Made by a program: the position numbers and the translations under genes. From Limnomonas spitsbergensis (lineage: Eukaryota; Chlorophyta; Chlorophyceae; Chlamydomonadales), in assembly GCA_037349105.1 (NCBI GenBank), contig JAYJMM010000039.1, forward strand, positions 682,001 to 746,000: a stretch of 64,000 nucleotides of DNA. Reading direction: 5' to 3'. Of the stretch, positions 22,589 to 50,047 are shown one piece after another. Each line of letters starts with the position of its first letter. Positions within the stretch are counted from its first letter, which is position 1. Under the pieces are notes generated by a model. It searched no databases. It saw only the letters and a program-made list of their open reading frames with translations, and was not told where the DNA came from.

Positions 22589-22590
22589 GC

Positions 22591-31356: not shown

Positions 31357-31995
31357 TGTCACAGTATATTACCGTATACGTGACAGAACCGTTTAGACCG
31401 CAGTTAGCGTTCTCGGTGACTCCGCAGCTTCTCTGCGGAGTCTTCGGATTTGAGCTGAGACCTAGAAACCCGCTTACGCAGGGAGATTTGACAGGTTCTA
31501 CCGTACTCTGAATTGGGCCTGCCGGGTCCCTGTATCCCGGCAGTTGCCCTAGCTAGTTACTTCGTCCCTTTCTAAAGGACAGACTCTATTGTAAACAAAC
31601 ACCGGCCGTCATATGTGTATGAGACCTCCGAAGTTCACATAAGTCAGTACCCTTACTCAAGTCAAGCCTAGACCAGCCTCAGCTGAGATAGCTGGAGACA
31701 AGTACCACAGCCAGAGAACCGAGACCACCCTGCCGAAGAAGAAGTACGCAGTCTACGTCCCGCCAACCTCACCGCGTGTAGCGCGGTAAGTGCACCTTAA
31801 CATAGCCCTGCTGGATCGCGCCCAGACGGCCAGAAGGCCTATGCTACCTAAGTCTATTGCTATATATACAAATATCTGTCTAGCTGCTTAACTCGAAGAG
31901 CACTCGCAGCCAGTGAATAGTCACTGAGCCTGCCCGTAGGCGTCCGTCACTGCCGTGAGGAAAGAAGTCCGCCACGGACCTGAAGCGCACATCGC
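31357..31995 (+). repeat. E3 5' terminal segment A1
   Basis: Starts with an imperfect 29-bp palindrome (31357-31385: TGTCAC ... GTGACA with inner TATA arms). Nearly identical to A2 (49177-49816); an extra C in A2 near AGACCTCTATT is one of the few differences. The segment contains the inferred promoter (first ~200 bp) and the RNA 5' region. Confidence 0.85.
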
Positions 31996-32018
31996 GTGTC
32001 CTTTAGAAAGGGACGAAG
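31560..32018 (+). promoter_or_regulatory. E3 predicted self-priming pair
   Basis: Arm 1 (31560-31580) is perfectly complementary over 21 nt to arm 2 (31998-32018). Arm 2 starts 2 nt after segment A, at the primer-binding position. Both arms differ from those of E1 at matching sites (CTAAAGGAC here, CAAAAGGAC in E1) so that pairing is kept. Confidence 0.65.
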
Positions 32019-32661
32019 TAGATCTAGCCTGATCAGCCTGATTTGCCAATTCCTGCTAAAGGTGCTTGTGCAGCGAGATTGGAATTTTGTTTGTATGCAA
32101 ACGACCTTGGACAGCATATGAACTGCACTTTGCTGTGGTAATCTCCATAGAGAGTGCCAAGTTAAGCCCTGAGAATCACTAAGAGTGGCAACTTAGTGTT
32201 GAGTCCAGGAGAGGCTTGAGGATCTGGCTGTGGATTTATACACCCAGCAGATAATACCTGTGTGACTGCAGATTGTGATCAGTTGGATCCAATCGTTCAT
32301 CATTGACAGAAGTGAACTTGTGGACAGATCATCCAAGTTTAAAATTTTGTGGTGTACCAAAGGATCCCCGCAGGCGTCAGAGAGGAACTGACACAGCGCA
32401 AGTGGATATATCCGCCCGGAGGCAGACATCCGCAGGGGACGTGTGCCAGCTAGAGGCAGCCCAGCCAGCAAAGGTGGGAAGGGTCTAAAAAGGGCGAAGG
32501 AGGATTCCGCCAGATTAAAAGATTAGTGAGCATAAAAGCAGAGGGCAAGGCCTATCGCGCAAAATTGCTGTACCTGCCGTCCAGCCTTGACTAGCAGATC
32601 CTCACCAGATTGCAGTAGGGATAAGGGGCAGAAGCCTAAACGTTAGCAGGTTTTGTAGGGG
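32019..32661 (+). other. E3 leader
   Basis: About 640 bp with no recognisable gene, homologous to the E1 leader. It contains one copy of the GGCGAAGGAGGATTCCGCC unit that is tandemly repeated in E2. Confidence 0.6.
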
Positions 32662-33300
32662 GTGTCGCCAGCACGCCTGCAGGACAGTGCGGTTCGTAAA
32701 ATGCCTGTTGAGATGACAGGCATAGATCTAAACCCCGATAGGCACCAGCACCCTGACGTCCAACGGAGGAGTGGGCGTCTGAGGGGGCTGGAGCCGGGTA
32801 TAGACCTAAAAAATGCTAGTGCTGAGATTGTGGCAGAGGCCCTGTTGATGGCGGAAAAGCTGGCAGAGCCAGTAGAACCGCCTGCAGAGGACTGCAGGGT
32901 ACATGAGCCGGGCCGCGTACCACCCAGAGGGGCAGGGGCGCAGGCAGATGGTGCAGTACTAGTAACACGAAAAGGCATTGGTCGAGGGGGTCCATTGCCC
33001 GCTGGTTCCGACAGCAGTCTGAATTTCGAGCAGGGGCAGACTCAAGCGGGAACCCCAGAGCTGATCTTGGATCAAGCAACGGAGGCCTCCCAGAGCTGTG
33101 TCACGCGACAGAGCAGTGAACCTGAGGCCGAGCTGCAGCAGAGCCTGCCCAGGGTGGCAAATGTCGCACAGCGGGTTGAAAAAGAGCCCAGCCAACCGGA
33201 TCTAAGGGCAGAAGTAGCCGCAGCTTCAGACAAGTTTGCAGGCTGTCATAAGACCTGCACAGACAAACCTCGAATAAACAGGAGGGAGATGGGGCCAGGA
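32662..33300 (+). CDS. E3 gag N-terminal segment
   Basis: This frame carries one copy of the ~130-residue module seen three times in E1 (GIGRGGPLPAG and TPELILDQA). No function is known. The nearest ATG to the start of homology is at 32701. The E1 comparison shows the protein passing into the next frame at about 33291, within a GGGG run, where GARIVPAGVKHE-like sequence continues. A single-base indel there, in nature or in the assembly, separates it from the main gag ORF. The open frame itself runs to 33405. Confidence 0.65.
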
Positions 33301-33302
33301 TT

Positions 33303-36300
33303 GTGCCTGCAGGGGTCAAACACGAGGAAGCTGAGCCCCAGCCAGCAGCAGGCAGACAGAGCTCGCAGGCAGGCAAGGAAAGGGAGAAACCAGCTGAGCC
33401 GGTAGGGAAGCCTTGGGCTGATCTATCCGAGAAAGAACAGCCAGACCCAGTTCAGGAAAAGCAGGGGCAGCAGACTACAGCAGAACTGCGTCCCGTGCAG
33501 CAGCTGCAGCCGCGCAGGGCACTGGTTAGAAGAGGAGCTGGATCCACAGTTTTCGGCACACCGCTGTCCAGTTTTCCACCCAGCGTGAACAGACCTGCGC
33601 AGACGTCCAAGGAGGGATCTAGCAGCCAGAGGCAAAGAGAGCCAGAGCGCTCGGAGACTGGGGGAGTCGCGTGCGGAAATGAGGAGGTAGAAGGGCCGAT
33701 CGGTTGGGCAGGAATTGTGCAGTGGGCAACAGACCTGTGGAAGCAAGTGTGCTCCAGGACGTTCTTGCATTTCCAGGACCAGGTCACAGCCATTGAGGAG
33801 TTCAAGGCCCATCATCTGCGGGGATGGGCAACAAAGGCCATGTTGGGTATCCCCCACACAGGGCTGAACAGGGCGCTACTGTTAGCCGCCCTTGGACAGG
33901 TATCCAAGGGAAGGACGGGACACGAAGCAGCCAGGGCTGTTAAAGCCTTCGCAGACGAATGGTGCAACGAGGTCACAGGAGACCAGGAGGAACCTGGGTC
34001 AGAGCCAGAGGATGAGGAGGACCAGGCGTGGGAAGGATTTGAAACAAGGGTGCAGCGGCCTGAGGGGATCAGGGAGGTGCAAAGGTGGCAGCAGCAGGCG
34101 GGAGCCGCGCCAACACCAACACTCAGATCTGCAGCTTTCGAGGTCAGCAGCGAGCCCAGCCTCAGAGGACGGCCAAGGGGCAGGGAAGCACCCAGAGCCA
34201 GCAGTCCAGCCGCCAGCGAAAGGGCGGAATTGACTAGCCGATCACTCGCCAGAATGGCAGAGCAAAGCACAGCAACACGCAGAGCAAGCATGCAAGAGTC
34301 TTATGAGTTGCTACGCATAGTCGAGGACAAAGAGAACGCATACCAGGAAACCCAGGTGGATTACATCAAGGAATTCCTGAGGAACAGGCAGCCAGGCGCA
34401 GCAAGAGGAGCCAGGAGGAATGAGCCTGCAGGCAGCGCACGGAGCAGTGGTCCAAAAATACAGGAGGCCAAAGAGGAAACACAGTCTGATTCCTATGCCA
34501 GGAATTACACAGGCGGGACGCAGTCAGGTCGGCAGAGCCAGGAGCCGCCCAGGGGGCAGGCATACTCCAGGGAACAGCCTCACCAGCATAGCCAAGAGCC
34601 GCCCAGAGGACAGGCAGAGGGCAGGGAACAGCCAAGCCAGCAGAGCCAGGAGCAATCAAGGGGACCAGCGGAACGCAGCAGAGGTGTGCGGCAGGAATGG
34701 CAATACCAGGAGCTGCCCAGGGGACAGGCAGAGCCCGGTAGAGCACAGCCTTGGAGGCCTGGATCTGACAGCAGACCAGGCAGAAGCGAACCAGAACGAC
34801 CGCCACCCGAAGGAAGTAGAAGCTCGGCAGGCAGAGCGGGCAGACAGCCATCACGATACGCTCACGATCATGATGAGGATTATAACAGACATGACAGGTA
34901 TCATTCAGGCCGCAGCCCATCGAGGGGCGGCAGTGGAGGACCTAGGTCGCGGTCAGGGTCAGTAGATTCGGGACCAGGGGGAGCGGACAGACGCAGGCCG
35001 GGGGCCAGACAAGAGTCCAGCGACCAGGAAATGAAAAGGCTCGATCGGGAGCAGGCGAGGGTGAACCTGCAGCTGCAGCAACAGATGGTACTGCAGCTGG
35101 CAGGGGTAGCCAAGGTAGCCAAGATCCCAGCCATCCAAGGCAACGTACCAGTCCTGGATATGTCACACCCAGGAGCGGTTGCAGCCAGGAAGTATTGCCA
35201 GGCGTGTGGGTACTGGGGATCGCACAACAGGTTGGCGATGTCAGATGACCAACCAGCATTGGCCGTGGTGGCAGGCGAAATAGCTGGATCATGCCAGTCG
35301 CCGTCAGCTATGACGTTGCTGATCAAGTCGCTGGTCAAGCTGTGGAACAGCAAGCCTGCCAGCATGAGGCCGCTGATGGCAGCCATCAGGGCAGCGCCCC
35401 ACGCAGGAAACAGAATTGCCAGAGAGGTGGAGCGGATCGGACAGCAGTGGATAGCCCCAGCAGAGCAGCAGGGTTGCGAAGCTTCGCTACTCACGTTGTG
35501 GATCAGGGTGGTCCAGGAGGAGGTGGGAAAGCCAACTTCAGAGGAGAGGACGGCCATCACCAACCTCAGGCTAGGAGTAAAAACTACTCTAGACCCTGAC
35601 GTCAAGCCAGAGGAGACGGTGGAAGCATTTGCTCACAGAGTACTGACGACGGCAGAGTTGCTGCAGATCTCAAGGGATGCAGTAGATCACTTCGGCAGAA
35701 GCCACTCGGTCTCGCGCATGTTCCATGACGGACTCCCAGCGGTTGCTAGAGCCAAGCTGAGCAAGTTCGTTATGACGGTGCCAGGGTATCTCAGCATAAG
35801 CGATGAAGACCAAATCGCAGTACTCACGCAGCAGGTGGTGCTGTGGGACAGGTTTGCCCTGGAAATGGGTGACCTGGGAGGTACCGGCTTCAGGCAGATA
35901 ACCAACAGCGGGCCTGGCCAGGGAGAGGCACAGCCCAACAGGGGCAGGAAAGAGAGAGCAGGACAGTGGGAGATGCGGACACGCCTTGATGGAATTGGGC
36001 ACCCCACAGGCTCAGCAGCAGTACCACAGGCGCGGATGGATGGTAAACCCAGAGGAGTTACCTGGGCGGACCAAACGGGGGCGGCAAATTACAACGCTGA
36101 GGGTGGCTCAAGCGCAGCCAAGGCATGCTACCAGTGCGGTAGCACAACGCACCTAGCCAGGGAGTGCAGGGCGCCCAGGGCCAGGGATGAACGCAGACCT
36201 ATGCCCCTGGTTACAGACATCACACCTGGACCGGCCAGACAGCCGCAACAGCAGTATCCGCAGCAACAGCAGTATCCCCTGCCGCCAAGGCCGCAGCAGG

Positions 36301-38327
36301 GACAGGCGGCAGGCAGGCCGTATGACAGGAATCAGAACAACAGACAGTATCCTAGGCCTGGGCCTGGCCAGGGAGGTCAGGCGCAGCAGGCAGCCCACGT
36401 GTCGCATCTCAGCAATGCAACGGGGCAGGCTGAGCCAGAAGGATGGCACCAGACCATGGCAGAGATGCTCAGCGAGTCCGTAGCACTCATGACGCAGGTT
36501 GGGCTGGTACCCAAGCCTGCAGGTTTCAAACAGGCGGTTCATAACGCCCGTCCTAAGTCGTTTATGCCAGAACCTTTGCAGGAGGAGGAACCAGTACCAG
36601 GATTCACGGTACAACCCTCCAGGAAGGGAGCAAAGAGGCTGGTATTGAGTAAACTAGCTGACGATATGTCTGACATCCGCCTACAGGTGTTCAAGCTGAA
36701 CGAGCGGCTCTCAGCGCTGTCTTTCACCACGATGCCCATGGGAGCAGACAACACCGGCCACAGGGGTGAGACTAGTAACACCAGGCCAGAGGGTAGAACG
36801 GTGACGGCTGCACCCAAGCTGCAGTATTTCAAAAATGACAGAAGCAACCTGGAGCAGTGTGTGGGACTTATGGTCAATGGGAAGGTCCTGGTGGCTCAGA
36901 AAGCACTCATGGACTCCGCATGCACGTGCCATGTCATCACTGTCAATATTGCAGAGCAATTAGTTGCCATGGGGGCGGAGCTGGTGCGTACAGACGAGAA
37001 GATACGTACCACAGACAATGCAGGGGCAGATCTGTATGGAGTACTGTTCATTTATGTGGTGTATGGATACGGAGGGCCCAATGCCATTATGGAGCCCACG
37101 GTGGTCAGGGTCTTTAAGACACCACCGGATGCATATGAGCACTTGGTAGGGAACCCAGAGTTCCTCAAGTATAACGGGGTCTTAGAGGCAGCGGGAAGGC
37201 TGACCTTACGACCCAGAGAGGGCCCACAGAGAGCGCAAGGGGTCAGGGACCTTACGCTGCCACTAATGCGGGCATCTCCAGCAGGGGGGTACCAGGCAGC
37301 AGTAGTGGCATGGGCAGGAATTCAGTGTGGATTCGCAGAAAGAGAGGGGTGGCCAGCTGCAACAGTTGAAACAGAGCACGAACCACTCTTACAGCATTCC
37401 ATGGCCACACGCGCAGGTGCCGCTATGAGAGCTGAACAGGGCGCAGGACCCAGCAACCAGCCAAACCCCAGGCTACAAAGGCGCAGGCTGGTGCCAGTCG
37501 AGGCAGCAGTGGCAGAGACCGCCGCACCAACCGCAGAGGAGGTGGCAAGAGCGCGCAGAGCCGCGGGAATCTCTGACATTGAGAAGAAGGCGGTCAGGGA
37601 CTTCATGCCAGCATGCCCCGCCTACCCGTGCGCCTTGTGCGGAAAGCCAGACAAGCACTCGGAGGAGGAGTGTGAGAGGAGGATTCAGGTCTTTTCGCGG
37701 ACACCCGAAACAGCGCCTGAGGTGCAGGCAGGGCCGCCTGCAGCGCAGAAGAGGGGATACGGCACAGCTGCAGCCGACAGAGCTGCACAGGCAACTTCAA
37801 CGCGCAGCAGGGGAGAGCAGCAGCAGCAGCAGCAGCAGCTGCAAAAGCAACCGCAGGTGGCAGGGCCTAGTGTGCAGCATGCCAGCGACGGCAAAGGTAG
37901 GCAGGCGCAACAGCAGCAGTTGCAAGGGAAGCCAGGGGCAGCAAGGGCCCCCGCGCAATCAGCCAGCAACAGCGATGACGAGGCGCAGGAAGCAGAGGAG
38001 GAGGAAGAATGCAGCGTAGAGAAGGTGCCCAAACCAGGAACCAGCCCACAAGACGGGCACATCGGCAGGCTGGCCGGGCAAGTTGACGGGCTGAAAAAGG
38101 CTCTAAGATGGAGAGAGCGTCAGATGTGGACGCAGTCAGCAGGAATCGTGGATTACCTGAAAGGCCAGCTGGCCGGGTGGAAGTGCATCACGGATGGTCA
38201 GCAGGCCATGGCAGCGGTTCAGCGGGAGTACATCCTGCGGGCAGATGAGCTGATCGGGCTGCAGGAGGCCCTGGGACTACAGCACTTGGGGGGGGCCGCC
38301 AAACCACGGGCAGCCGCTCCCATTTGA
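33303..38327 (+). CDS. E3 gag-protease polyprotein
   Basis: 1674 residues in the open frame; the N-terminus probably continues from the upstream segment. A capsid-like helical region lies at about 600-860 (CQACGYWGSHNRLAMSDDQ; EETVEAFAHRVLTTAELLQI), preceded by Arg/Gln/Pro-rich repeats. A CCHC knuckle, CYQCGSTTHLAREC, is at about 942-955 and would bind the genomic RNA. A retropepsin-like segment follows with ALMDSACTCHVI (about 1202), where the usual DSG/DTG is DSA, and downstream hydrophobic strands. A second cysteine cluster, CALCGKPDKHSEEEC, lies near 1441, then Gln-rich and acidic stretches. It ends 14 nt before the annotated pol start, and the pol frame is open further upstream across a G run. 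Confidence 0.8.
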   Translation: MPAGVKHEEAEPQPAAGRQSSQAGKEREKPAEPVGKPWADLSEKEQPDPVQEKQGQQTTAELRPVQQLQPRRALVRRGAGSTVFGTPLSSFPPSVNRPAQTSKEGSSSQRQREPERSETGGVACGNEEVEGPIGWAGIVQWATDLWKQVCSRTFLHFQDQVTAIEEFKAHHLRGWATKAMLGIPHTGLNRALLLAALGQVSKGRTGHEAARAVKAFADEWCNEVTGDQEEPGSEPEDEEDQAWEGFETRVQRPEGIREVQRWQQQAGAAPTPTLRSAAFEVSSEPSLRGRPRGREAPRASSPAASERAELTSRSLARMAEQSTATRRASMQESYELLRIVEDKENAYQETQVDYIKEFLRNRQPGAARGARRNEPAGSARSSGPKIQEAKEETQSDSYARNYTGGTQSGRQSQEPPRGQAYSREQPHQHSQEPPRGQAEGREQPSQQSQEQSRGPAERSRGVRQEWQYQELPRGQAEPGRAQPWRPGSDSRPGRSEPERPPPEGSRSSAGRAGRQPSRYAHDHDEDYNRHDRYHSGRSPSRGGSGGPRSRSGSVDSGPGGADRRRPGARQESSDQEMKRLDREQARVNLQLQQQMVLQLAGVAKVAKIPAIQGNVPVLDMSHPGAVAARKYCQACGYWGSHNRLAMSDDQPALAVVAGEIAGSCQSPSAMTLLIKSLVKLWNSKPASMRPLMAAIRAAPHAGNRIAREVERIGQQWIAPAEQQGCEASLLTLWIRVVQEEVGKPTSEERTAITNLRLGVKTTLDPDVKPEETVEAFAHRVLTTAELLQISRDAVDHFGRSHSVSRMFHDGLPAVARAKLSKFVMTVPGYLSISDEDQIAVLTQQVVLWDRFALEMGDLGGTGFRQITNSGPGQGEAQPNRGRKERAGQWEMRTRLDGIGHPTGSAAVPQARMDGKPRGVTWADQTGAANYNAEGGSSAAKACYQCGSTTHLARECRAPRARDERRPMPLVTDITPGPARQPQQQYPQQQQYPLPPRPQQGQAAGRPYDRNQNNRQYPRPGPGQGGQAQQAAHVSHLSNATGQAEPEGWHQTMAEMLSESVALMTQVGLVPKPAGFKQAVHNARPKSFMPEPLQEEEPVPGFTVQPSRKGAKRLVLSKLADDMSDIRLQVFKLNERLSALSFTTMPMGADNTGHRGETSNTRPEGRTVTAAPKLQYFKNDRSNLEQCVGLMVNGKVLVAQKALMDSACTCHVITVNIAEQLVAMGAELVRTDEKIRTTDNAGADLYGVLFIYVVYGYGGPNAIMEPTVVRVFKTPPDAYEHLVGNPEFLKYNGVLEAAGRLTLRPREGPQRAQGVRDLTLPLMRASPAGGYQAAVVAWAGIQCGFAEREGWPAATVETEHEPLLQHSMATRAGAAMRAEQGAGPSNQPNPRLQRRRLVPVEAAVAETAAPTAEEVARARRAAGISDIEKKAVRDFMPACPAYPCALCGKPDKHSEEECERRIQVFSRTPETAPEVQAGPPAAQKRGYGTAAADRAAQATSTRSRGEQQQQQQQLQKQPQVAGPSVQHASDGKGRQAQQQQLQGKPGAARAPAQSASNSDDEAQEAEEEEECSVEKVPKPGTSPQDGHIGRLAGQVDGLKKALRWRERQMWTQSAGIVDYLKGQLAGWKCITDGQQAMAAVQREYILRADELIGLQEALGLQHLGGAAKPRAAAPI

Positions 38328-38340
38328 AACGGACCCAGAG

Positions 38341-41300
38341 TTGGCGGGGTGCGTCAGGGCAATGTTGGCAACCCCGTCCCCGCTACCAGACATGGACAGC
38401 GAGCATTCCGGCATGGAGGAGCCGAAAAAAGAACAGCAGCAGCGCGGTTCTGCTGGCAGCGACGAGAGCAGCTCAGGGGACAGAAGGCTACGGCAGCGCA
38501 GCAGAAGCGTGGAGAGGTCCATCAGTGAGGGACGCCAAGGGACGGTGCCAACGCCGGCAGCCAGGACCCAGCGGCAGGGCGCAGGGCGGCGCAGCAACAG
38601 CGAGGAAAGGAGCAGGGACCGCAGGCAGCGGTCACCCAGCGGGTACCAGCCCAGGGGCAGGTCCAGGGACCGGCGCCCTGTGGAGTTTGCCAGGCCTTAC
38701 AGGCAGGGGCAGGAGCAGCAGCGAGGCCCAGGCCCCGGCCCAACGGACAGAACCGCAGCAGGGGGCAGCGGGGTAGCAGAGCCTAGGCGTCATCTAGGAC
38801 CACGCCGTGGGGGAGTGTGCTTCAATTGCGGCCAGCCTGGGCACTTTGCCAACGAGTGCACCACCCCGGAGCAGGCCGGGCTGACAGGCGACAGGCCAGG
38901 GGCACCTGCAGGCCCAGCACGGGGCTATGGAACCTGGGGCCCAGGCAGGGGCCAGGGGATGCCCATGGAGAGCAGGCGCAGGACCTTCGAGACTGCCATG
39001 GGGACTCCCAGTGCAAGGGACTTCCAGCAGGGGGCAGCAGGCCCCAGCGCGTGGCCAGGACCGCCAGCGCACCAGGAACCACCGGAGGGCGAACAGCCAA
39101 GGTGGGAGGGGACAGGGGGCCACACGTGCTTCATGACAGGCCACGTGGAAATTATCCAGGACAGGGGTGCCTACCAGGCTGAGGTCAGTCAGGCAGGACC
39201 AGTTCAGGTGGCTCCCCAGAGGGTACCAGAGGGGCAGGTAGCCAGTCAGGTCAACCACTGGACAATGGCTGTGGAGGCATTAGCCATGAATCATTACGGG
39301 ACTATGCCTGCAGGGTCGGCCAGATCCGTAGCACACGCGGTGGATTTCTTGAGGGATCTCCAGAGGAGGGGGTGCCCAGCTCCGTGTGTAGGATGGCCTA
39401 ATCTGATGCAGAGGTTCCTAGACAGTGAATGGGACCGGTATGATGAGCAGTGGGATGAGTTTGAGAGACGTGAGCGGGAGGCAGTACCCCAGCACAACGT
39501 CGACGGGTGGGAGACCGATTCAGGGTCCAACTTTTTGGCAGACAGATATGAGCCTCAGGAACCCTCACCCGTGCATGAGAGAGAGTTTGGCGTGTTATGT
39601 CCAGGTACCCCGGAGGGCATTCAAGACACAGGCAGAGGGGTAGCGGGAGCAGCCGCCGAGACAGGGGAGCCACCCAGAGCGGAGCTCCGATGCCCAGTGG
39701 CCAGAGAGACCGCAGCAGGGAGCCAGCAGGACGCCCTGGCGGGGCCCGTTAGGACCCATAAAAGCACTACCTCTCGGTGCAATGCTTGGGGAGGAATCGA
39801 CGAGGACGGAGAGACGCAGCACGGCAGCGAGAGGGAAGGGAGGTCTGACGCAAGGGGCGAGGACAGGCAGCTTGACCAGTCCTTCAGCAGAGACAGGTCC
39901 TACAGCAGAGAACGCATCTACATACAGCCGTTCCCGCAGTCGCTGCCAGCAGGCGAGCCCTTCGTGCAGTACTTCCGCCTGGGGGAAGAGATGCCAGGGG
40001 CGTCCACCTCCAGGGCTATGCTGACTATGCCAGGAGAGTGCAAGGACGGGCCATGTCGGTTGCAGAACCATAGGCTCCTGGGAGGCGGGGAGCAGACATG
40101 TGTTAACAGGGCAGCACCAATGCAGTTAGTTGCCAGGATGATTTTCCCGTGGGACGCAGTGACAGCTGTCATGCTGGGCGCCGCGCTCAAAGGATACATC
40201 CAGCCCAGCACAAATATGGCAGATTATATGCAGAGGGGATGGTCGCGGCACCCCATCTACGCATACTGCGTTAGCGAGATGGTGAGTCTCGCCATTGCAG
40301 CAGGCATCACAGCGGTGGATGCAGCAGGCTGGGCGCACCCGGACATGCCAGACATTGCGCCGGCCGAGGGGATGTGGCAGGGCGCGCAGCCAGGATTCAT
40401 ACGCACACCGTGGGCGATGGATTGTGTCCGTGAGCTGATGGGGCACCCAGCCCTCAGAGACCGCGCATTTTATGTGCCAGTCCAAGCCATGGGCGAGTTC
40501 GAGAGATTTGTGGAAACAACAGAGCAGGCCCCAGTGAGGGTAGGGCTGTGTCACCCAGGCAGGCCAGGGCGGTGTGAGGCGACCATAGAGGCGTCCATCG
40601 TCATCCCCAGGACGGTCGCAGGACTAGCAGTGCCGTGGGGACCAGCACCAGGGGACGCCAGGGCAGCCATCCCGGTCCAGCAGCTAGTAACTTACTACTA
40701 TGAGGAGATGGCGGATGAGGAGTTGCCCGTTTCATCGGCATGGATCCACATGCACGCGACTCACGATGATATGCCCGTCTACCTGTTCGCGAGGCACCAG
40801 CAGGACGTGGCAGTCACTAAGTGTGCGTCAGTAGACGAGGCGGAGTTCCATGCCTACACCTACGCTAGGGGAGCAGACCCGACGGTGTGGACGCTCATGC
40901 TTATGGCGCTGCAGAGGGTCCTGCTCCCAGGACAGCTGTCAGCGGCCATGCGGCATGTGTGGGGCGTAGAGGATCAGTGGGCGCCTACGGTGGTTACGGC
41001 CTGTCCAACATGGCCTTACGGACCCCAGCAGACGCCAGCATCAGGAGCCATGTGGGAAGGAGAGGACGAGCTGGCGCGCTCGCCGTTCGCAGTAGAACGC
41101 CTGGCAGCATATGTGCACCAGTGGGTGCGTCAGGAGCGAAGAGCGTGTCACGACAACAGGGCCAGCAGCGTGCTACCCTATTGGCAGGCAGACGTCATAA
41201 CGACGCAGTTGTGGAGACAGGCGCACCCATCAGGGGTGCGCACGCTGCACCCCCTATTCAGAGGAGCAGGGGATGTAGGCATCGAGGAGGAATTGGAGGA

Positions 41301-44300
41301 CTTAAGGAACCAGCCGAGTATGGGACATGGGCTGGTGGGCAGGCGCGGCGCCGATGCAGAGGAACCAGCGGCAGCCACCGACGACCCTGTCCAGGATGAG
41401 GAGCCAGAATGGACCCAGGCGGCATTTGTAACATTTGGGGCGGCAGCAGCCTCATGGGAGCTGCTGGAGTACGTGGACGACTTGGGGGTATCAGCACTGG
41501 AAGCTGAGCCTAGGGGACGGGCAGAGCCCCAGGCACCCCTAGACATTGTCAGCACACCACCCACGGAGGACTCAGACAGCAGGACACCAGAGTTCAGCGA
41601 CGACGTTTCAGAGGGTCCACCACCATTGGTTGAGATCACCGAGTCAGATGAGGAGTGGCACGAGGGAGGAGCCATGACCCCGGACCAGGATAGCGTCACC
41701 AGAGCAGAGGCTCGGGATGCAGAGGGCAATTATATGCCAGCCAGCAGCGGCCCAGGACCAGGGAGTCCAAGGTACGGCATGGTGGGAGAGCTGCCACAGC
41801 TGAGGCGCGCGCGGGTGCGCAGCATTTTTCAGGAGCAGGCAGCGATGAAGGAGCGCAGAAGCAGGAGAGCCGCTATAGAGCTCGGTAACGGGGTCACGCT
41901 GGAGGAGGAGGCAAACCAGGTCACAGCGGGGATCAGCCATCAGCAAGCAGCAGACCAGCGCGCTTGCAGGCCCAAGGGGGCAGAAGCAGGCAAGGAGAGC
42001 AACGGGCGCCCAGGAGACCCCCAGATCAGCCCGCCAGCACAGACAGCGGCACAGGGGCCTTGGGGTGACCCAGCAGCGTACAGCACGAGACGCTGGATTG
42101 CAGTGCTCAGGAACTTTGTAGATCAGCTGGACGTGCTACGAAGGCAGGACATGGGGCAGCAAGAGGCGGGCCAGGAGGCTAGCTTGCTGTTCCGACTTAA
42201 AATGCTACCACAGCCCGATCCGGATCCCAGGATGGGAGGTTCCAGCAGGGCGGTCAGGGAGCTACAGGAGGAGCTGACGGAGAGAATATCAGCCCTCTAC
42301 ACGAGAAGAGCAGAGGGAGCGGACACCCAACAGCCGTCGGACAGCCGCAGCAACCAAACCCAAACCAGCAGGGGCGAGGACCTCGCAAGGAGGGTTGCCG
42401 GCGCACGGGAAACCGTACGGCGGGGCTGTGGGCAAGGGGAGCCCGCGGTTGCAGGCAGCAGCGTGGCTGTGCAGCGCGCCACTCACAGGCAGGAGCGGCT
42501 GGCACAGTGCAGCACAGGACAGATCCCGGGAGCAGGGCCAGAAAGGGCCAGTGTGGTTTGGGCTGACACTGCCCAGTTTCAAGGAAAAAATTCAAAGAAG
42601 GCCAGGCAACGCGCAGGAAAGGCGCAGAGGGCGGCCGCGGACAGGAACCGAGGCAGCAGACCAGGATTGGACTGCCCAGCCCTGCCACTCAGGGTCAGCC
42701 AGGTAGACCTGGAGATCACGTGGGCCAGAGGACAGCAGCCGCCAGCGCAGATTGCAGAGCCAGGCGTTCAGCCCGCAGAACAGTTACCGCAGCAACCCAT
42801 GAGGAAGATGACAGCGTGCAGGGGACTCCTCACCTGTACAGCAATTAAAGGGATCCTTACGGGGGCGCTCCAGCTGATACTGGTGTGGCTCCTGCTGTCG
42901 GTATGTGTGCCGGGGGCGCGAGCTACCGGGCAGGGAGTGAGAGGAGGAGGATTTACAGCAGGCCAAGGTGCTTTTGTGTCTGGGAGGGAGGCAGCAGCAA
43001 AGCTGTCGTCTGGATGGTTGCGCCCACCGGCTGTCAGCTCCATGGAGGACGCCAGCAGGAGGGGTGCATGCAGCCAGCAGGAGAGATGGCACAGCAGCAA
43101 CACCACTGGCGGGGAAGAGCTGCCCGCGGTGGACGACCCGCAGGCGGCTGTGGTGATCGACATGTTCCAGCCGGGGGGAGTAGTGGAGCCACCAGCAGAG
43201 TACGTCAAGACCAAGGAGGGATGGCTGCTGGGCAAGCACCCCGACTTCACTGCGGAGCAGCAGGAGAGCCTGGAGCAGAGCCTCCGGGATCGCCAAGGAG
43301 CATTCGCTTACTCCATGGAGGATCTACCAGGCTACTGCGGCACGCAGGGTGAGTTTACACTGGCTTTAGAAGACGAGGTCAGTTCGTGCTTTCAGAAGTC
43401 CAGGGATATGCCACCGCCTAAGGCAGCCATTTTTAAGGAAAAGTGTCAGCCGATGATTGAGGCAGGCATCATAGTCAAGGTGCCCCAGGGGGGGCCTATC
43501 AAGTTTGCGGCCAACTCAGTAGTAGCAGCTAAGAAGAGTGCCGACACTGGGGAGTGGACAGACCATCGCATAGCGCACGATATGCGCAGGTTAAACCTGC
43601 GTACAGCCAAGCAGGAATTTGCAATCCCCAGAATGGAGACTATTTTTCAGAACCTGGGCACTGCCAAGATATTCAGCAAGGTTGATCTACGGTCGGGGTT
43701 CATGCAGATCCCTATAAAGGTCGAGGACCAGCCTAAGACAGCTTTCTGGATGGGACCTGAGCTTTGGATGTACACAAAGCTCAACTTTGGTCTGCGCAAT
43801 GGGCCTCCCTTCTTTCAACGTATGATGGAAGAGGAGATTGCTAGGGCAGGCCTGAGTGCGTTCTGCGTAGCATTCATTGACGATCTGCTCGTGTACAGCG
43901 ACACACCAGCAGAACACATCAGGCATGTGGAGCTGATGTTAGACATGCTCCACAGTGTAGGATTAAGGGCGCACCCCGACAAGTCCATGTTTGGGTGTGC
44001 AACAGTAGAGTACCTGGGTCACAATGTGTCAGCCCAGGGGCTCACGCCGCACGCAGCTAAGATAGCAGCAGTTATGGCGCTGCCAGAGCCCGCATCGGTG
44101 AAAAACATCCAGGAGGTCATGGGATTCTTGAATTTCTACCGGTGCTACGTCCCGGACTTCTCGAAAAAGGCAGCATGCATCAACGCATTGCTGGTCCAGG
44201 GAGTCCCGTTTGTGTGGGGGCCAGAGCAGTCACAGGCGTTCCAGTTGATTAAGACAGAGATGTGCGAGGGCGGGAGAGTCCTGCGCAGACCAGATTACAG

Positions 44301-44988
44301 TGGGACAGGGCCAGACGGCAAGGGGCCGCCAAGGCCGTTCTTACTGTACACAGATTTCTCTAAGCAAGGCATAGGCGCCGTGCTAGGTCAGTGTGATGAC
44401 AGCGGGCGGGAGTATATGGTGGCATGCACATCCAGGTCCCTGAACAAGAGCGAGAGGAACTATTCCTCGTTCCAGGGGGAAATGCTGGCCGCAGTGTATG
44501 CAGCACGCACATACCGCCACATGCTGTTTGGGTGCAAGGTGCATCTCATCACTGACCATGAGCCGCTCACTTACCTCATGGACAACCAGACGTTGGTAGG
44601 CCAGCACGCTAGGTGGGCTCTCATGCTTCAGGAGCTGGACATTACCATTGTCCACCGCTCAGGAGCATGCCACCAGAATGCAGATATCCCGTCCAGATCT
44701 CCCCTCCCATCCTCAGCTGACCGCACAGGGGCCAGGCTTGATACAGTCGCGCCCGAGCCAGCAGCCAGGGAGGATGCAAGTGGGAAGCAAGTAGCTTTGC
44801 TCACGGGGTTGGGCAGAGTGAACCAGTGGCATGCAGACCAGATAGTGCGCATGGCGCAGGAGGGCAGAAGGAGAGTACAGATGTTGCGAGATGCAGAGGC
44901 AGCTTGCGTGACAGCACCGGTGGGGCAGGAGATATCCTCTGCCGCCACTGACGATGATGAACAGGCGCAGCCTGTTAGTACAGCATAA
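38341..44988 (+). CDS. E3 pol: CCHC, large unknown region, reverse transcriptase, RNase H
   Basis: 2215 residues. The listed start is TTG. The frame is open upstream to overlap gag, so expression by +1 frameshifting near 38288-38297 (eight G) is likely. An Arg/Ser-rich start precedes a CCHC knuckle (CFNCGQPGHFANEC, about 160-173). Roughly 1300 residues with no recognised family follow; the part at 39900-41450 looks globular. A hydrophobic helix (ILTGALQLILVWLLLSVCV, about 1500-1525) precedes the gypsy-type reverse transcriptase, which has KVDLRSGFMQIPI, LRNGPPFFQ and catalytic FIDD at 1845-1848. RNase H starts near 2003 (LLYTDFSKQGIGAVL). No integrase is in this ORF; it is in the next. The stop (TAA CAG) is in the same frame as the next ORF. 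Confidence 0.85.
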   Translation: MAGCVRAMLATPSPLPDMDSEHSGMEEPKKEQQQRGSAGSDESSSGDRRLRQRSRSVERSISEGRQGTVPTPAARTQRQGAGRRSNSEERSRDRRQRSPSGYQPRGRSRDRRPVEFARPYRQGQEQQRGPGPGPTDRTAAGGSGVAEPRRHLGPRRGGVCFNCGQPGHFANECTTPEQAGLTGDRPGAPAGPARGYGTWGPGRGQGMPMESRRRTFETAMGTPSARDFQQGAAGPSAWPGPPAHQEPPEGEQPRWEGTGGHTCFMTGHVEIIQDRGAYQAEVSQAGPVQVAPQRVPEGQVASQVNHWTMAVEALAMNHYGTMPAGSARSVAHAVDFLRDLQRRGCPAPCVGWPNLMQRFLDSEWDRYDEQWDEFERREREAVPQHNVDGWETDSGSNFLADRYEPQEPSPVHEREFGVLCPGTPEGIQDTGRGVAGAAAETGEPPRAELRCPVARETAAGSQQDALAGPVRTHKSTTSRCNAWGGIDEDGETQHGSEREGRSDARGEDRQLDQSFSRDRSYSRERIYIQPFPQSLPAGEPFVQYFRLGEEMPGASTSRAMLTMPGECKDGPCRLQNHRLLGGGEQTCVNRAAPMQLVARMIFPWDAVTAVMLGAALKGYIQPSTNMADYMQRGWSRHPIYAYCVSEMVSLAIAAGITAVDAAGWAHPDMPDIAPAEGMWQGAQPGFIRTPWAMDCVRELMGHPALRDRAFYVPVQAMGEFERFVETTEQAPVRVGLCHPGRPGRCEATIEASIVIPRTVAGLAVPWGPAPGDARAAIPVQQLVTYYYEEMADEELPVSSAWIHMHATHDDMPVYLFARHQQDVAVTKCASVDEAEFHAYTYARGADPTVWTLMLMALQRVLLPGQLSAAMRHVWGVEDQWAPTVVTACPTWPYGPQQTPASGAMWEGEDELARSPFAVERLAAYVHQWVRQERRACHDNRASSVLPYWQADVITTQLWRQAHPSGVRTLHPLFRGAGDVGIEEELEDLRNQPSMGHGLVGRRGADAEEPAAATDDPVQDEEPEWTQAAFVTFGAAAASWELLEYVDDLGVSALEAEPRGRAEPQAPLDIVSTPPTEDSDSRTPEFSDDVSEGPPPLVEITESDEEWHEGGAMTPDQDSVTRAEARDAEGNYMPASSGPGPGSPRYGMVGELPQLRRARVRSIFQEQAAMKERRSRRAAIELGNGVTLEEEANQVTAGISHQQAADQRACRPKGAEAGKESNGRPGDPQISPPAQTAAQGPWGDPAAYSTRRWIAVLRNFVDQLDVLRRQDMGQQEAGQEASLLFRLKMLPQPDPDPRMGGSSRAVRELQEELTERISALYTRRAEGADTQQPSDSRSNQTQTSRGEDLARRVAGARETVRRGCGQGEPAVAGSSVAVQRATHRQERLAQCSTGQIPGAGPERASVVWADTAQFQGKNSKKARQRAGKAQRAAADRNRGSRPGLDCPALPLRVSQVDLEITWARGQQPPAQIAEPGVQPAEQLPQQPMRKMTACRGLLTCTAIKGILTGALQLILVWLLLSVCVPGARATGQGVRGGGFTAGQGAFVSGREAAAKLSSGWLRPPAVSSMEDASRRGACSQQERWHSSNTTGGEELPAVDDPQAAVVIDMFQPGGVVEPPAEYVKTKEGWLLGKHPDFTAEQQESLEQSLRDRQGAFAYSMEDLPGYCGTQGEFTLALEDEVSSCFQKSRDMPPPKAAIFKEKCQPMIEAGIIVKVPQGGPIKFAANSVVAAKKSADTGEWTDHRIAHDMRRLNLRTAKQEFAIPRMETIFQNLGTAKIFSKVDLRSGFMQIPIKVEDQPKTAFWMGPELWMYTKLNFGLRNGPPFFQRMMEEEIARAGLSAFCVAFIDDLLVYSDTPAEHIRHVELMLDMLHSVGLRAHPDKSMFGCATVEYLGHNVSAQGLTPHAAKIAAVMALPEPASVKNIQEVMGFLNFYRCYVPDFSKKAACINALLVQGVPFVWGPEQSQAFQLIKTEMCEGGRVLRRPDYSGTGPDGKGPPRPFLLYTDFSKQGIGAVLGQCDDSGREYMVACTSRSLNKSERNYSSFQGEMLAAVYAARTYRHMLFGCKVHLITDHEPLTYLMDNQTLVGQHARWALMLQELDITIVHRSGACHQNADIPSRSPLPSSADRTGARLDTVAPEPAAREDASGKQVALLTGLGRVNQWHADQIVRMAQEGRRRVQMLRDAEAACVTAPVGQEISSAATDDDEQAQPVSTA

Positions 44989-45021
44989 CAGGCGTTCAGC
45001 AACAGGGAGCGGTCCAGGACA

Positions 45022-48000
45022 ATGATCAGTGATGTTCTTGCTGATTTGCCTCGGGTGTCGCCCCCTCATTCCCTTGCAGGCCTGGACACAGCTTGCCTGT
45101 CGAGTGGGGCTGTGCGGGCCATGGAGACCGACGGAGTCGTCCTTTTCGAGCCTTTTGGAGGTATGTGCTCTGGGCTGGAAATGGTACTCAGGGCAGGTAT
45201 GCCAGTAGTGCAGTACTTGTATGCAGATATCAGTGAGGAAGTCAGAGAGATCGCAGGGGGTCGCCTGTTGCACTTGCACAGGAGATTCCCCCAGTTGCTT
45301 CCGGTCAAAGCGTTTGATAAAGCTTTCAGAGCGTTGCCGCAAGATGTGTATGCCATTACGGCAGAGCACCTCAAAGAGGCGGGTGCCCAGGAGGGGCACC
45401 AGTGGTCCATGGTAGCAGGCTGGGAGTGCCAGGACCTTTCGTCCGCCGGCAAGGGGCGTGGGCTCGCGGGAGAGAGAAGCAAGTCTTTCTTCCCGTTAGT
45501 CAAGCTGTTGGGTACTCTACAGTTCCTGCAGGGCCCTAGGCCGCCTGCGTACCTGATTGAGAATGTAGCAATGCAGTTGAATCAGAAGAGTGTGAAGGCC
45601 AGTGTTGAGGCTTTTCAGGAAGTGTGCAGGATTTTGGGGAAACCGGCGTTGTTCGACGCAGCGCAGGTGGGATCTTACGCCCACCGCACCCGCAACTATT
45701 GGGGGAATATTGCCTCTGCAGCAGATATTGAATTTGTGATTCGTGCGTCGACCAGACCCCACGAGGGGATTGTAGACGACATTCTGGACAAGGGCAGCAA
45801 GGCCCAAGTGGTATCATGTCCGGACAATGGGGGGTACCGCATCAATGTCACAGGGCAGCCCAGGAGGGTGCTGCCATGTTTGATGGCCACGCCCTCGTCA
45901 TATTCTTTTCGGAACGGGCAAAATGGGATGGTGTACAGACCCATGGGGGACTTGCAGGAGCCCAATGCAAACGAGCGTGAACGAGCCATGGGGTACGCTG
46001 TGGGGTCCACATTGCCACGCCCAGATTTCCCGGAGGCAGCCAGACGGGCAGCCTTGGGCAGGTGCATGGATTCATGGGCACTGAGTGCATGGCTCAATGT
46101 GGCACTTGAGTGTGCTAAAATCATGCCAGCAGAATTGACACGCAGGGCAAAGCTGCCAGGCCAGGACAGGGACCCAGTACTGGGGGCGACTTTAATGTCC
46201 AGCCACTATGCCCTTGCTACCGCAGGAAACGCGTGCTCTGGCAGCGGAGAAGCGGCCGCATCATACAGACAGTGCCTGGGAGAATCGGCCGCGGCAGACT
46301 GGGCCGACGCAGCACAGGAACCAGGTGGGAACACGCCTGAGGAACAAGTTAATGTGGGAATCAAAGTCACCAGGGACAAAGAGGGTGAGAAGGACCAGCC
46401 AGGTTGTCCTGCAGGACCGTCGGCTAGGGTTGATGTGTGGGCAGATGAGCCCGTCTTGAGGTTTCTCCGTGAGAAGACTTATGTCCAGGGAACAGAGCTA
46501 GGAGAACAGACCAGAATACAGCGCAGAGCAGCGCCATTCCAGTGGGAATCAGAGAGGGGAGGGGTCCTGATGAGACTCATGCCGGATGGTAGACGTTGTG
46601 TGGTGCCCAGGCCAGAGGACAGGCTAGCAGTGATCCAGACAGCGCATGAAGGCACGGGCCATTTTGGCAGCCACCGCACGGCTTTCATGGTCATGCAGCA
46701 GCATTGGTGGCGGGGGCTTCGAGCAGCAGTCAAGAAGGCAGTGCAGGAATGCGGTGTGTGTGACAGGGCCAGGGCGTCCACGTTCAATCACATACAGCCC
46801 AACCTGCACCCGCTACCCATTGAGGGGTTGTTTTTCAGGTGGGGAGTGGACCTGTGTGGTCCATTCACGACCACTTCCAGGGGAAATCGGTTTGTGATGG
46901 TGTGTGTGGAGCATTACTCCAAATGGGTGGAGTTGATCCCCATTCCAAGCAAGGCGTCTGATGTGACGGCCTTGGCATTCTTTCAAAATGTTGTTGCACG
47001 ATTCGGGGGATGCGCAGAGGTGGTGACGGACCAGGGAACAGAGTTCCAGGGTGAATTTCAGGACATGTTGTTGGACTGCTTCATTGACCATCGCACCACT
47101 TCTGCCAACCACCCCCAGGCAGACGGGCTTTCAGAGAGGGCTGTCCAGACCCTCAAGGCAGGCCTGCGCAAGTGCTGCGAGGAGGGCAGCAGCGACGAGT
47201 CCTGGGACAAGATGGTGCCCTGGGTAGCCCTGGGCTTCCGGTGCTCGCCGCAGCAGGCCACGCGCATGGCGCCATACGAGGTGCTGTTCGGACAGAGACC
47301 CACCTTCCCCTCCAGAGTGGGGGCGGAACTCTGGAGCACAGCCAAGGTGGCAACAGCAGAGGAGGCAGCAGACCTGCTCTTGGCCAGAGTGGCCAGGATC
47401 AAAGAGGCACTGCCAGTCGCGGGTGAGCATCTAAAAATTGCGCAACACCGCGACAAGCTGCGATATGCACGCATCCGTGGGGGAGGTTATGTACCCCAGG
47501 TCAGGCGTTTTGCAGAAGGAGATTACGTGTATGTGAAATATTCTTCAGAGCGACGCAGCCTCGATCCCAAGGCCAGGCCTGAGATCCTCAGGGTAAAAAC
47601 ACTGGGGGAGACGGGGACCTTGGTGTTGGAAGGGGCTGATGGCCTCACAGTAACAGAGAATGCTGTCAATTGCTCTCCATGCCACTTGCCCAACCTCAGG
47701 GGAGTGGTTGATTTCAGTGCTACCAGACCCAATAACAGCCTGTCTTGCGAGGTGTGCCAGCTGCCCGATCGCGGAGAGGTGATGCTTTTGTGTGATGCCT
47801 GCAATACAGGTTGGCACATGGACTGCTTGGTACCAGTGCTCGAGGAGGTGCCTGAGGGCGAGTGGTTGTGCCCACACTGCACACCGGATGACAAGGGAGC
47901 GGGGCCCGCTGCAGTGGCAGGGCCCACCACAGAGGAGCGCAGTTTACAGGTCCAGGGGCGACCGAGCCCAGCAGCCAGAGCGGCTGCCAGGACAGCCCAG

Positions 48001-48237
48001 GAGGCCGACGTCATGGACAGGCCTGAGGTAGAAGTCATGGCCACCAACCCAGCAACAAGGCAAATGGAGCGGGGCATCGCAAGACCAATGGCGAACGGGT
48101 TGTATGACATCTCGTACACCACTGGCCGGGGAGAGGCCAATGTCACCCCGAGAGCAGTTACAAGAAGAGCCAAGGTGGCCAAAGAAGCAGCAAGGGAGGA
48201 AGAAGAGTCAGCCTTTGAGGATCTTACCGAGACCTGA
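45022..48237 (+). CDS. E3 DNA cytosine-5 methyltransferase-integrase-PHD fusion
   Basis: 1071 residues. The methyltransferase (about 35-365) shows motif I FEPFGGMCSG (42-51), motif IV WECQDLSSAGKGRGL with catalytic Cys136, ENV at 180-182, and HRTR (221-224) as motif VIII. A NERERAMGY block and an RRAALGRCMD block stand for the last motifs. CQDLS resembles DNMT3/DRM-type enzymes (CNDLS), though Pro before Cys is replaced by Glu. The integrase follows, with HEGTGHFG/CGVC zinc site (about 543-585) and catalytic D610, D670 and E705, a 34-residue last spacing. A PHD finger (about 908-955, CDACNTGWHMDC) closes the domain list. The protein would insert cDNA and could methylate DNA while reading histones; that use is inferred. 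The ATG is 33 nt after the in-frame pol stop. Confidence 0.88.
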   Translation: MISDVLADLPRVSPPHSLAGLDTACLSSGAVRAMETDGVVLFEPFGGMCSGLEMVLRAGMPVVQYLYADISEEVREIAGGRLLHLHRRFPQLLPVKAFDKAFRALPQDVYAITAEHLKEAGAQEGHQWSMVAGWECQDLSSAGKGRGLAGERSKSFFPLVKLLGTLQFLQGPRPPAYLIENVAMQLNQKSVKASVEAFQEVCRILGKPALFDAAQVGSYAHRTRNYWGNIASAADIEFVIRASTRPHEGIVDDILDKGSKAQVVSCPDNGGYRINVTGQPRRVLPCLMATPSSYSFRNGQNGMVYRPMGDLQEPNANERERAMGYAVGSTLPRPDFPEAARRAALGRCMDSWALSAWLNVALECAKIMPAELTRRAKLPGQDRDPVLGATLMSSHYALATAGNACSGSGEAAASYRQCLGESAAADWADAAQEPGGNTPEEQVNVGIKVTRDKEGEKDQPGCPAGPSARVDVWADEPVLRFLREKTYVQGTELGEQTRIQRRAAPFQWESERGGVLMRLMPDGRRCVVPRPEDRLAVIQTAHEGTGHFGSHRTAFMVMQQHWWRGLRAAVKKAVQECGVCDRARASTFNHIQPNLHPLPIEGLFFRWGVDLCGPFTTTSRGNRFVMVCVEHYSKWVELIPIPSKASDVTALAFFQNVVARFGGCAEVVTDQGTEFQGEFQDMLLDCFIDHRTTSANHPQADGLSERAVQTLKAGLRKCCEEGSSDESWDKMVPWVALGFRCSPQQATRMAPYEVLFGQRPTFPSRVGAELWSTAKVATAEEAADLLLARVARIKEALPVAGEHLKIAQHRDKLRYARIRGGGYVPQVRRFAEGDYVYVKYSSERRSLDPKARPEILRVKTLGETGTLVLEGADGLTVTENAVNCSPCHLPNLRGVVDFSATRPNNSLSCEVCQLPDRGEVMLLCDACNTGWHMDCLVPVLEEVPEGEWLCPHCTPDDKGAGPAAVAGPTTEERSLQVQGRPSPAARAAARTAQEADVMDRPEVEVMATNPATRQMERGIARPMANGLYDISYTTGRGEANVTPRAVTRRAKVAKEAAREEEESAFEDLTET

Positions 48238-48943
48238 AGCCGAGCCCAGAGCGGCTAGGTCGCTGCGCACGTGACGTCACCCACGCCGTAACTGGCAAGG
48301 AGCGGGCAGGCGCCTACAGAGCATAAATGCAGACGCAGCGCGGCTTGTCCTAGTACCCAGTAGGCAATGGGCCGACAGCCAGCGGACCGAAGACGGAAGA
48401 TGCAGGAGTAGAGTTACGGCAGCTTGATGAAAATTTGTTCTCAAATACCATAGCAGCAGGGCTTCGGTAGTACATATGTTATGAAGATGATGAGCGAGGA
48501 GAATTAGTCAACTCGGGCAATGATTACACAGCAGGGGGCGGATCACGCTGCTACGGCGCACATTTCCTGTGGCCTTTGAAGACCAGGCGGCTATGGCGCA
48601 GTGGGGCGAGAGCAGCGGTTGTTCTTAGCTTGAACGGATAACTTTGAAATTTCTCTGTTTGCTAGCCAGTAGTGGGCTGAACAGCTTGAATTTGTAGGAT
48701 TCTGCGCATGGCGCTTCAGCTGAAACTCGTTTGATTTTTTATTTCCTGATTGCAGAATGCCTGAACCAGGCAAATTTGTAGAAGGCCTGAACCAGGCAGA
48801 TGTATAGAAGACCGGAACCAGGCATATTTGCAGATGATGATTTGAGCTTCTACGTACATATTTTTCCAGAAGTTTATTTCAGTACCACCCTTTTCCGGCT
48901 CCCCGCGCATGCCTGGAGGGCTTAACGCTGGGGAGCGGGGGGC
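48238..48943 (+). other. E3 3' UTR with tandem hairpins and purine tract
   Basis: No gene. Short hairpin 13-mers GCCTGAACCAGGC occur at 48759-48771 and 48785-48797, and a variant (CCGGAACCAGGC) at about 48812. The UTR ends in a purine-rich tract (GGGGAGCGGGGGGC, about 48930-48943) directly before B1, the expected plus-strand primer. Confidence 0.75.
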
Positions 48944-49174
48944 GAGTAAAGTAGTAGGGGCGGTACCCACGAGACGGAGACTTCTCTGCAGAGACATCCA
49001 GTTAGGACCTTCCAGTTACAGTTATCTAGTTGACACACTCTTGTCTGAAGTACAAGGAGCATGAGTGTACGGTGATGTACCGTGTTTGTGAGTAGAGGAC
49101 ATCTCTCTAAGGTGTCCTGACCGGAGTTTACGGTATTTACCATAGTATTGCAGTTACTGCTTTATGGTGCGACA
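48944..49174 (+). repeat. E3 segment B1
   Basis: 231 bp starting GAGTAAAGTAGTAGGGG right after the purine tract and ending ATGGTGCGACA. It is followed by GC (49175-49176) and TGTCACAG of A2. Confidence 0.9.
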
Positions 49175-49176
49175 GC

Positions 49177-49816
49177 TGTCACAGTATATTACCGTATACG
49201 TGACAGAACCGTTTACACCGCAGTTAGCGTTCTCGGTGACTCCGCAGCTTCTCTGCGGAGTCTTCGGATTTGAGCTGAGACCTAGAAACCCGCTTACGCA
49301 GGGAGATTTGACAGGTTCTACCGTACTCTGAATTGGGCCTGCCGGGTCCCTGTATCCCGGCAGTTGCCCTAGCTAGTTACTTCGTCCCTTTCTAAAGGAC
49401 AGACCTCTATTGTAAACAAACACCGGCCGTCATATGTGTATGAGACCTCCTAAGTTCACATAAGTCAGTACCCTTACTCAAGTCAAGCCTAGACCAGCCT
49501 CAGCTGAGATAGCTGGAGACAAGTACCACAGCCAGAGAACCGAGACCACCCTGCCGAAGAAGAAGTACGCAGTCTACGTCCCGCCAACCTCACCGCGTGT
49601 AGCGCGGTAAGTGCACCTTAACATAGCCCTGCTGGATCGCGCCCAGACGGCCAGAAGGCCTATGCTACCTAAGTCTATTGCTATATATACAAATATCCGT
49701 CTAGCTGCTTAACTCGAAGAGCACTCGCAGCCAGTGAATAGTCACTGAGCCTGCCCGTAGGCGTCCGTCACTGCCGTGAGGAAAGAAGTCCGCCACGGAC
49801 CTGAAGCGCACATCGC
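49177..49816 (+). repeat. E3 segment A2
   Basis: 640-bp copy of A1 ending CACATCGC exactly where A1 meets the primer site, then joined directly to B2. Confidence 0.9.
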
Positions 49817-50047
49817 GAGTAAAGTAGTAGGGGCGGTACCCACGAGACGGAGACTTCTCTGCAGAGACATCCAGTTAGGACCTTCCAGTTACAGTTATCT
49901 AGTTGACACACTCTTGTCTGAAGTACAAGGAGCATGAGTGTACGGTGATGTACCGTGTTTGTGAGTAGATGACATCTCTCTAAGGTGTCCTGACCGGAGT
50001 TTACGGTATTTACCATAGTATTGCAGTTACTGCTTTATGGTGCGACA
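49817..50047 (+). repeat. E3 segment B2 (3' terminus)
   Basis: 231-bp near-identical copy of B1. The element ends at GCGACA (50047), followed by the AAGA duplication and the resumed E1 3' UTR. Confidence 0.9.

Follow-up and report, generated by a model that had tools for sequence, protein, structure and literature searches.

A 64,000-nucleotide stretch of the Limnomonas spitsbergensis genome (contig JAYJMM010000039.1, positions 682,001 to 746,000; hereafter the window, part of a 260-Mb genome) carries a retroelement, E1 (31357-50047, plus strand), whose ends do not coincide with the ends of its long terminal repeats (LTRs). We hold with considerable confidence that E1, an LTR retrotransposon of Ty3/gypsy type, uses a two-LTR circle as its integrating form. 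That it represents a DDE-integrase lineage doing so obligately, by way of a palindrome encoded within the LTR, is in our judgement probable. Positions are those of the window unless prefixed with C, which marks contig coordinates.

E1 is composed, in order, of a repeat A1, an internal region holding three long open reading frames (ORFs), a repeat B1, the dinucleotide GC, A2 and B2. It starts with TGTCACAG and stops with GGTGCGACA, and the target duplication AAGA lies on either side (31353..31356 and 50048..50051). A1 (31357..31996, +), the outer 5' end, begins with TGTC and has a U5-like end at CGCG; the primer-binding site (PBS) TGTCCTTTAGAAAGGGACGAAGTA (31997..32020, +) follows immediately. 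At the other end of the internal region the polypurine tract (PPT) GGGGAGCGGGGGGCG (48930..48944, +) precedes B1 (48945..49174, +), which has a U3-like start, AGTAAAG, and ends with GACA. The GC (49175-49176) separates B1 from A2 (49177..49817, +), which is followed by B2 (49818..50047, +), the outer 3' end, again ending with GACA. The B1/A2 joint forms the palindrome GACA-GC-TGTC (49171..49180), the proposed integrase site, and at the A2/B2 joint (49817/49818) the two LTRs of the proposed circle would meet. The original prediction, made from these letters alone, had described this A-internal-B-GC-A-B layout with its AAGA duplication and had placed the LTR at B-GC-A by means of the PPT and PBS; both points were borne out, with boundaries shifted by ~1 nt because one G is shared. 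The integrated termini, TGTC...GACA, fall inside the LTR so defined.

The coding region is that of a Ty3/gypsy element. A gag-like ORF with one weak CCHC knuckle (33303..38327, +) is followed by an ORF (38341..44988, +) with a CCHC motif, a Ty3-type reverse transcriptase (~43564-44028) and RNase H (~44215-44634), for which Ty3 is the nearest among solved structures (E 4e-52). The third ORF (45022..48237, +) contains a DNMT3-like C5 DNA methyltransferase (Pfam stretch ~45409-45702), H2C2 (46615-46776), an integrase core (Pfam stretch 46840-47115) and a PHD finger (47746-47880). The methyltransferases among the 60 structure chains listed for it are DNMT3A. The integrase residues are D610, D670 and E705, the last lying just past the end of the Pfam stretch; the spacing of 34 between the last two agrees with the DD(34)E assignment made earlier. 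A Ty3-type reverse transcriptase-RNase H followed by H2C2 and a DDE integrase is the pol arrangement of Ty3/gypsy, and no Phage_integrase Pfam match, the mark sought for a tyrosine recombinase, was found in four E1 ORFs at E up to 0.1.

The A-start pattern and the longer GACAGC+A-start pattern were each searched genome-wide with up to one mismatch, giving 1131 and 534 places, respectively. Since this ratio is near 2:1, as it should be when every copy has an outer and an inner A start, about half of the A starts are outer ends. Layouts were then read in samples rather than in the whole copy set (45 A1 ends, 17 single-B loci, 20 pairs): 22 pairs of an outer A and a junction less than 19 kb apart were chosen by eye from the first 100 A-start places and 20 of them fetched, while 20 unpaired outer A starts and 17 single-B loci, the latter from 100 listed B starts, were inspected separately. 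In 19/20 pairs an exact 4-bp duplication adjoins A1 and B2 on their outer sides (by chance ~3e-45, at 1/256 each), and the remaining pair matched at 3/4 bases. One of the 20 is an A-B-GC-A-B copy that has no internal region and is duplicated at TAAC. The 20 unpaired outer A starts comprise 4 solo A-B repeats, each between exact 4-bp duplications, 15 A1 ends and one B-A-B locus with a mutated upstream joint (L116). A fifth complete solo A-B, at L133, has TTAG on both sides, so that all five carry duplications. Most of the paired and solo copies sampled thus start with TGTC, end with GACA and have 4-bp duplications, as had been predicted.

Many of the 100 listed B starts are paired, ~850-890 bp apart. 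Among the single-B loci the upstream side of B could not be assigned at L132, L134 and L135, B is truncated at L137, and L130 is a truncated A-B. An ordinary B-GC-A LTR with flanking sequence next to B was seen in 0/45 A1 ends and 0/17 single-B loci. One unusual A1 end, L050, has B cut down to its last 177 nt plus GC before A1, beside an inverted B, and is not a complete LTR; L041, L059 and L060 resemble insertions into older copies. The complete LTRs at both ends, with duplications at the LTR ends, of a standard gypsy element are therefore not what these samples contain. E1 is a gypsy-type pol within a non-standard element, because its ends lie inside the LTR that the PPT and PBS define. An origin from ordinary LTRs at both ends by later rearrangement was rejected, both on the duplications in the pairs and complete solo A-B repeats and on the lack of any flank-B-GC-A-PBS end in the same A1 ends and single-B loci.

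B1 and B2 are identical in 32/48 copies, and mean identity is 99.6% within a copy vs 88% between copies (48/49 copies compared, with L007, L008, L014 and L023 excluded beforehand as tandem, interrupted or 5' end). Two further arrangements were observed. Joints recur at near-equal steps of 19.6-20.0 kb at C41:3973381/3993030/4012679 and C34:3303417/3323384/3343288, forming tandem arrays of whole units that may have arisen by segmental duplication or by recombination of circles with a resident copy. At L007/L008 (C116:6004837-6008960) the order is B-GC-A-B-GC-A-B, with an extra LTR unit and an identical extra T in both A/B joints.

A second family shows a layout like that of E1. Its copy E4, at the right end of the window (56698-62157 and onward, minus strand; outer A at C39:756788), has an ORF with a C5 methyltransferase, integrase and PHD finger (58480..62157, -) that is 39% identical to the corresponding E1 ORF (381/966 aligned positions); in neither family is the integrase ORF interrupted. 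B1 (57490..57551, -) follows the PPT AGGGGGGG, the palindrome GACA-GC-TGTC lies at 57484..57493, A2 at 56763..57487 (-) and B2, the outer 3' end, at 56698..56759 (-). The duplication AGAG occupies 56694-56697, with its mate beside A1 at C39:756789-756792. Four of six further pairs of this family have a 4-bp duplication, and in the other two the B2 end is outside the stretches read. The repeats of E4 and E1 gave no match in a self-comparison of the window (E up to 1e-8, >50 nt), yet both have the core GCGACA-GC-TGTCAC; the core of the proposed integrase site is thus conserved amid unlike surroundings. The window contains 8 occurrences of the palindrome GACAGCTGTC, with up to one mismatch, vs 3.5 expected, a count reached by 2/100 shuffles. 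This count alone is weak, and the weight of the palindrome comes from its position at the joint in both families.

The A2/B2 joint was examined with a gap pattern that gave 406 joints, of which 100 were listed, counted by eye and recounted. No insert was present in 79, while 21 had 1-13 extra bases: T (9), TG (4), TGT (1), A (4), AA (1), C (1) and 13 nt (1). The PBS begins with the letters of the T, TG and TGT inserts, which make up 14/21. Of six E4-family joints, five hold T, TAA or TAAGA, with which the PBS of that family, TAAGAAAG, begins, and the sixth holds TAGTC. The other joints are more regular. At the B/A joint the spacer is 2 nt in 20/20 distinct contexts, compared with A2/B2 inserts in 6/41 at the fetched loci. 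At the A1/PBS joint no insert was seen in 44 copies plus E2 (0/45 vs 21/100, Fisher p 0.0002), a comparison in which most of the 44 copies (L032-L060) come from a joint-spanning query that is biased against inserts. The A2/B2 inserts resemble primer bases left on cDNA ends and captured at end joining.

These joints bear on an alternative without a circle, in which an extra template switch during reverse transcription would yield a linear A-internal-B-GC-A-B molecule, and integrase would act on ordinary linear ends. The repeat logic of DIRS and PAT elements permits such templated completion of ends, and the circle proposed here is known to us only through its presumed products. The switch would, however, have to stop precisely at TGTC and GACA, sites with neither PPT nor PBS; PBS-prefix bases at the joint fit the joining of finished cDNA ends; and in those paired copies that were read, the GC is missing at the outer ends. 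We consider this alternative quite unlikely.

Primer-like bases at a joint invite a closer look at the primer. The E1 PBS, which adjoins A1 without a gap, is the perfect reverse complement of A:202-225, a putative self-primer segment at 31558..31581 (+) in A1. In 42/44 distinct copies with a recognised PBS, the PBS pairs perfectly with A of its own copy over 23-24 nt; the match is shorter in L046 (13 nt), L115 (11 nt) and E2 (21 nt). Compensatory changes in A are found in a subfamily, L102 and L114 (TGTCCACTTAAAAGGAACGAAGT), and in E3. At L103 (C4:5101690-5102890), 65 of the first 66 bases of the PBS region are paired with A, well past the usual 23-24, as though a longer stretch of the primer, or all of it, had been copied. 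The E4 PBS is unrelated to that of E1 but has a 15-nt match to A:121-135, a length reached by 0/2000 shuffles (longest 13). The predicted fold of the E1 region contains the PBS-A pairing, with a z of −4.5. Self-priming has been described for Tf1 and Tj1 (PMC4600332). The Tf1-like feature, base-pairing of the PBS with the 5' region of the RNA that carries it, is seen here as complementarity to A and presupposes an RNA that starts within A; on this pairing, Tf1-like self-priming is a plausible inference.

Together, these features suggest the following scheme. Transcription would start within A, near A:202, and the 5' segment of the RNA would fold back onto the PBS and prime its own cDNA. Ordinary strand transfers at the PBS and PPT landmarks should then give a linear cDNA with B-GC-A LTRs, whose ends would be AGTAAAG...CGCG and not of the TG/CA type. 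Joining of these ends, sometimes with primer-derived bases retained, as the joint scars suggest, would close a circle. The DDE integrase may then cleave GACA-GC-TGTC in one of the LTRs, within GCGACAGCTGTCAC, after the CA of each strand, leaving two ends with 2-nt 5' GC overhangs as after retroviral 3' processing. After a strand transfer staggered by 4 bp, removal of the GC and repair would produce A-internal-B-GC-A-B. Of the routes to this form from a linear B-GC-A/internal/B-GC-A cDNA, closure into a two-LTR circle that is opened at one GC is the simplest.

The joining of cDNA ends could also occur between molecules, with integrase cutting two palindromes of a concatemer. In support of this, a dimer-like insertion at C9:3181840-3188345 (L124) has one duplication, ACGA, around an internal PPT-B-GC-A-PBS joint, and another at C4:266112-271945, with the duplication TTTG, was judged dimer-like by its joint spacing. 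A further joint between the ends was present in just 2/20 fetched pairs, whose inner parts were read partly, and cuts at every palindrome would give A-internal-B, not A-internal-B-A-B. We regard concatemers as an unlikely source of these copies.

Several observations weigh against integration from a two-LTR circle. Copies of the form A-internal-B exist: 6/17 single-B loci are PPT-B-flank, and E3 has the same form. Such copies could reflect integrase action on both sites of a linear cDNA, one-LTR circles or B1 x B2 recombination. They are also what would be expected if integrase excised A-internal-B from linear cDNA at both palindromes, the A-B-A-B tail being added by later recombination, and one of them, L129, pairs with the A1 of L113 with a perfect duplication, TAAC, at both ends. 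That pathway does not easily account for the A2-B2 parts and flanking duplications of the 20 fetched pairs, and the similarity of B1 and B2 is that of LTRs from one cycle; we judge it very improbable. For the circle itself, further difficulties come from the joints: 7/21 inserts differ from any PBS prefix; the 100 listed joints are not all independent (array neighbours, and L020/L021 with the same flank); and an insert-free joint was found in 0/6 of the E4 family, where, since every joint (6/6) carries an insert, the A/PBS boundary is uncertain by one base. The unbiased A1/PBS control, 17 copies found otherwise, is small, and its result (0/17 vs 21/100, Fisher p 0.04) is weaker than the p of 0.0002 given above. 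Confidence was kept despite this, because the argument is borne by the PBS-prefix composition of the inserts and not by their rate alone. Finally, the circle, the integrase cut and the RNA ends are inferred from integrated copies. The circle suggested in the original prediction has thus gained primer-site bases in the joint, duplications around solo A-B repeats and a second family, and keeps its indirect footing.

The window holds further copies and another retroelement. E2 (21693..30878, -) has the same layout as E1, with TGGG on both sides, which is the CCCA duplication reported for it earlier. It consists of A1 (30878-30235), B1 (22842-22591), GC, A2 (22588-21945) and B2 (21935-21693), and nine PBS bases stand between A2 and B2 (21944-21936). 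No pol domain was found by Pfam in the two long ORFs scanned, a third ORF (26202-27323) being outside the scan. Both E1 and E2 are inserted within the older copy E3, whose A1 repeat lies at 13901..14533 (+) and which extends further up to 21692, over ~30883-31352 and over 50052-50468. E3 ends with a B repeat (50248..50468, +) and has no A2-B2; its flanks, ACTA before A1 (within 13893-13901) and ACTG (50469-50472), form a decayed duplication only if the TGTA before A1 is skipped. Short repeats with CCTGAACCAGG are found upstream of the PPT in E1 and E3 (48728-48857, 50049-50126). A long interspersed nuclear element (LINE)-like element at 5410-12111 (+) has an endonuclease ORF followed by an ORF with a reverse transcriptase and weak matches to RNase H and PHD, and is thus another retroelement of the window with a PHD-like finger.

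Two-LTR circles were reportedly proposed as provirus precursors by Panganiban and Temin in 1984; the idea was later set aside for ordinary retroviruses, for which the route was long considered a dead end. A natural high-copy element with an apparent circle-closure scar makes the question of a circular precursor directly testable. If the present reading is correct, split direct repeats would mark any retroelement that integrates from a circle, irrespective of its recombinase, which would explain the occurrence of this layout in elements with two unrelated recombinases. Imprecise primer removal would be harmless, and recorded in the copies, because LTR ends would be joined and not integrated.

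Among known systems, TOC1 of Chlamydomonas reinhardtii has an unusual split arrangement of LTRs and may bear on novelty. The closest description is KnitGypsy-Dnmt3 of Klebsormidium nitens, for which a 2018 figure legend (Fig. 4) gives DIRS retrotransposon repeats with Gypsy domains (PMC5890265). By description, it shares with E1 a Gypsy pol with a Dnmt3-like C5 methyltransferase and DIRS-type A-coding-B-A-B repeats, whereas target duplication, primer site, circle and integration mechanism go unmentioned in that legend. The combination of DIRS-type repeats and Gypsy domains is therefore already in print, and the original prediction was wrong to hold that no such element had been described. Among the papers listed in literature searches, no other account of the layout with a DDE integrase was found, as judged from titles and the beginnings of abstracts.

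A circular intermediate has been proposed for the PAT, Toc and Ngaro elements. As described, they have the split direct repeats A1-B1-A2-B2 that E1 also has, but employ a tyrosine recombinase and form no target duplication (PMC4157794), whereas E1 encodes a DDE integrase and has 4-bp duplications; the split repeats are thus the one feature of the DIRS/PAT/Ngaro group seen here, and neither its recombinase nor its duplication-free insertion was found in the ORFs scanned and copies sampled. The common layout would allow the circle to be integrated in trans by the tyrosine recombinase of a DIRS/PAT element, leaving the DDE integrase idle. Tyrosine recombinase transposition is, however, described as forming no duplications (PMC4157794), and the integrase ORF has stayed open in both families; no search was aimed at genomic tyrosine recombinase elements, and we find this explanation scarcely credible.

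Integration from a two-LTR circle also has parallels among DDE enzymes. IS3/IS30-type bacterial insertion sequences use a DDE enzyme on abutted circle ends with a short spacer, but are DNA transposons without reverse transcription. In Ty3/gypsy elements, Tf1 and Tj1 included, the integrated ends are the LTR ends, whereas those of E1 lie inside the LTR defined by PPT and PBS. The likeness to this group, and to Tf1 and Tj1 in particular, is in the order reverse transcriptase-RNase H-integrase, the Ty3-type reverse transcriptase and integrase, and self-priming (PMC4600332). For the proposed cut, a parallel is the integrase of prototype foamy virus, which is described as cutting the palindrome of a two-LTR circle after CA in vitro to leave a 2-nt 5' overhang (PMC1180852). 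In that virus the palindrome lies where the two LTRs meet, whereas each LTR of E1 encodes one, and cutting at it is apparently the normal route.

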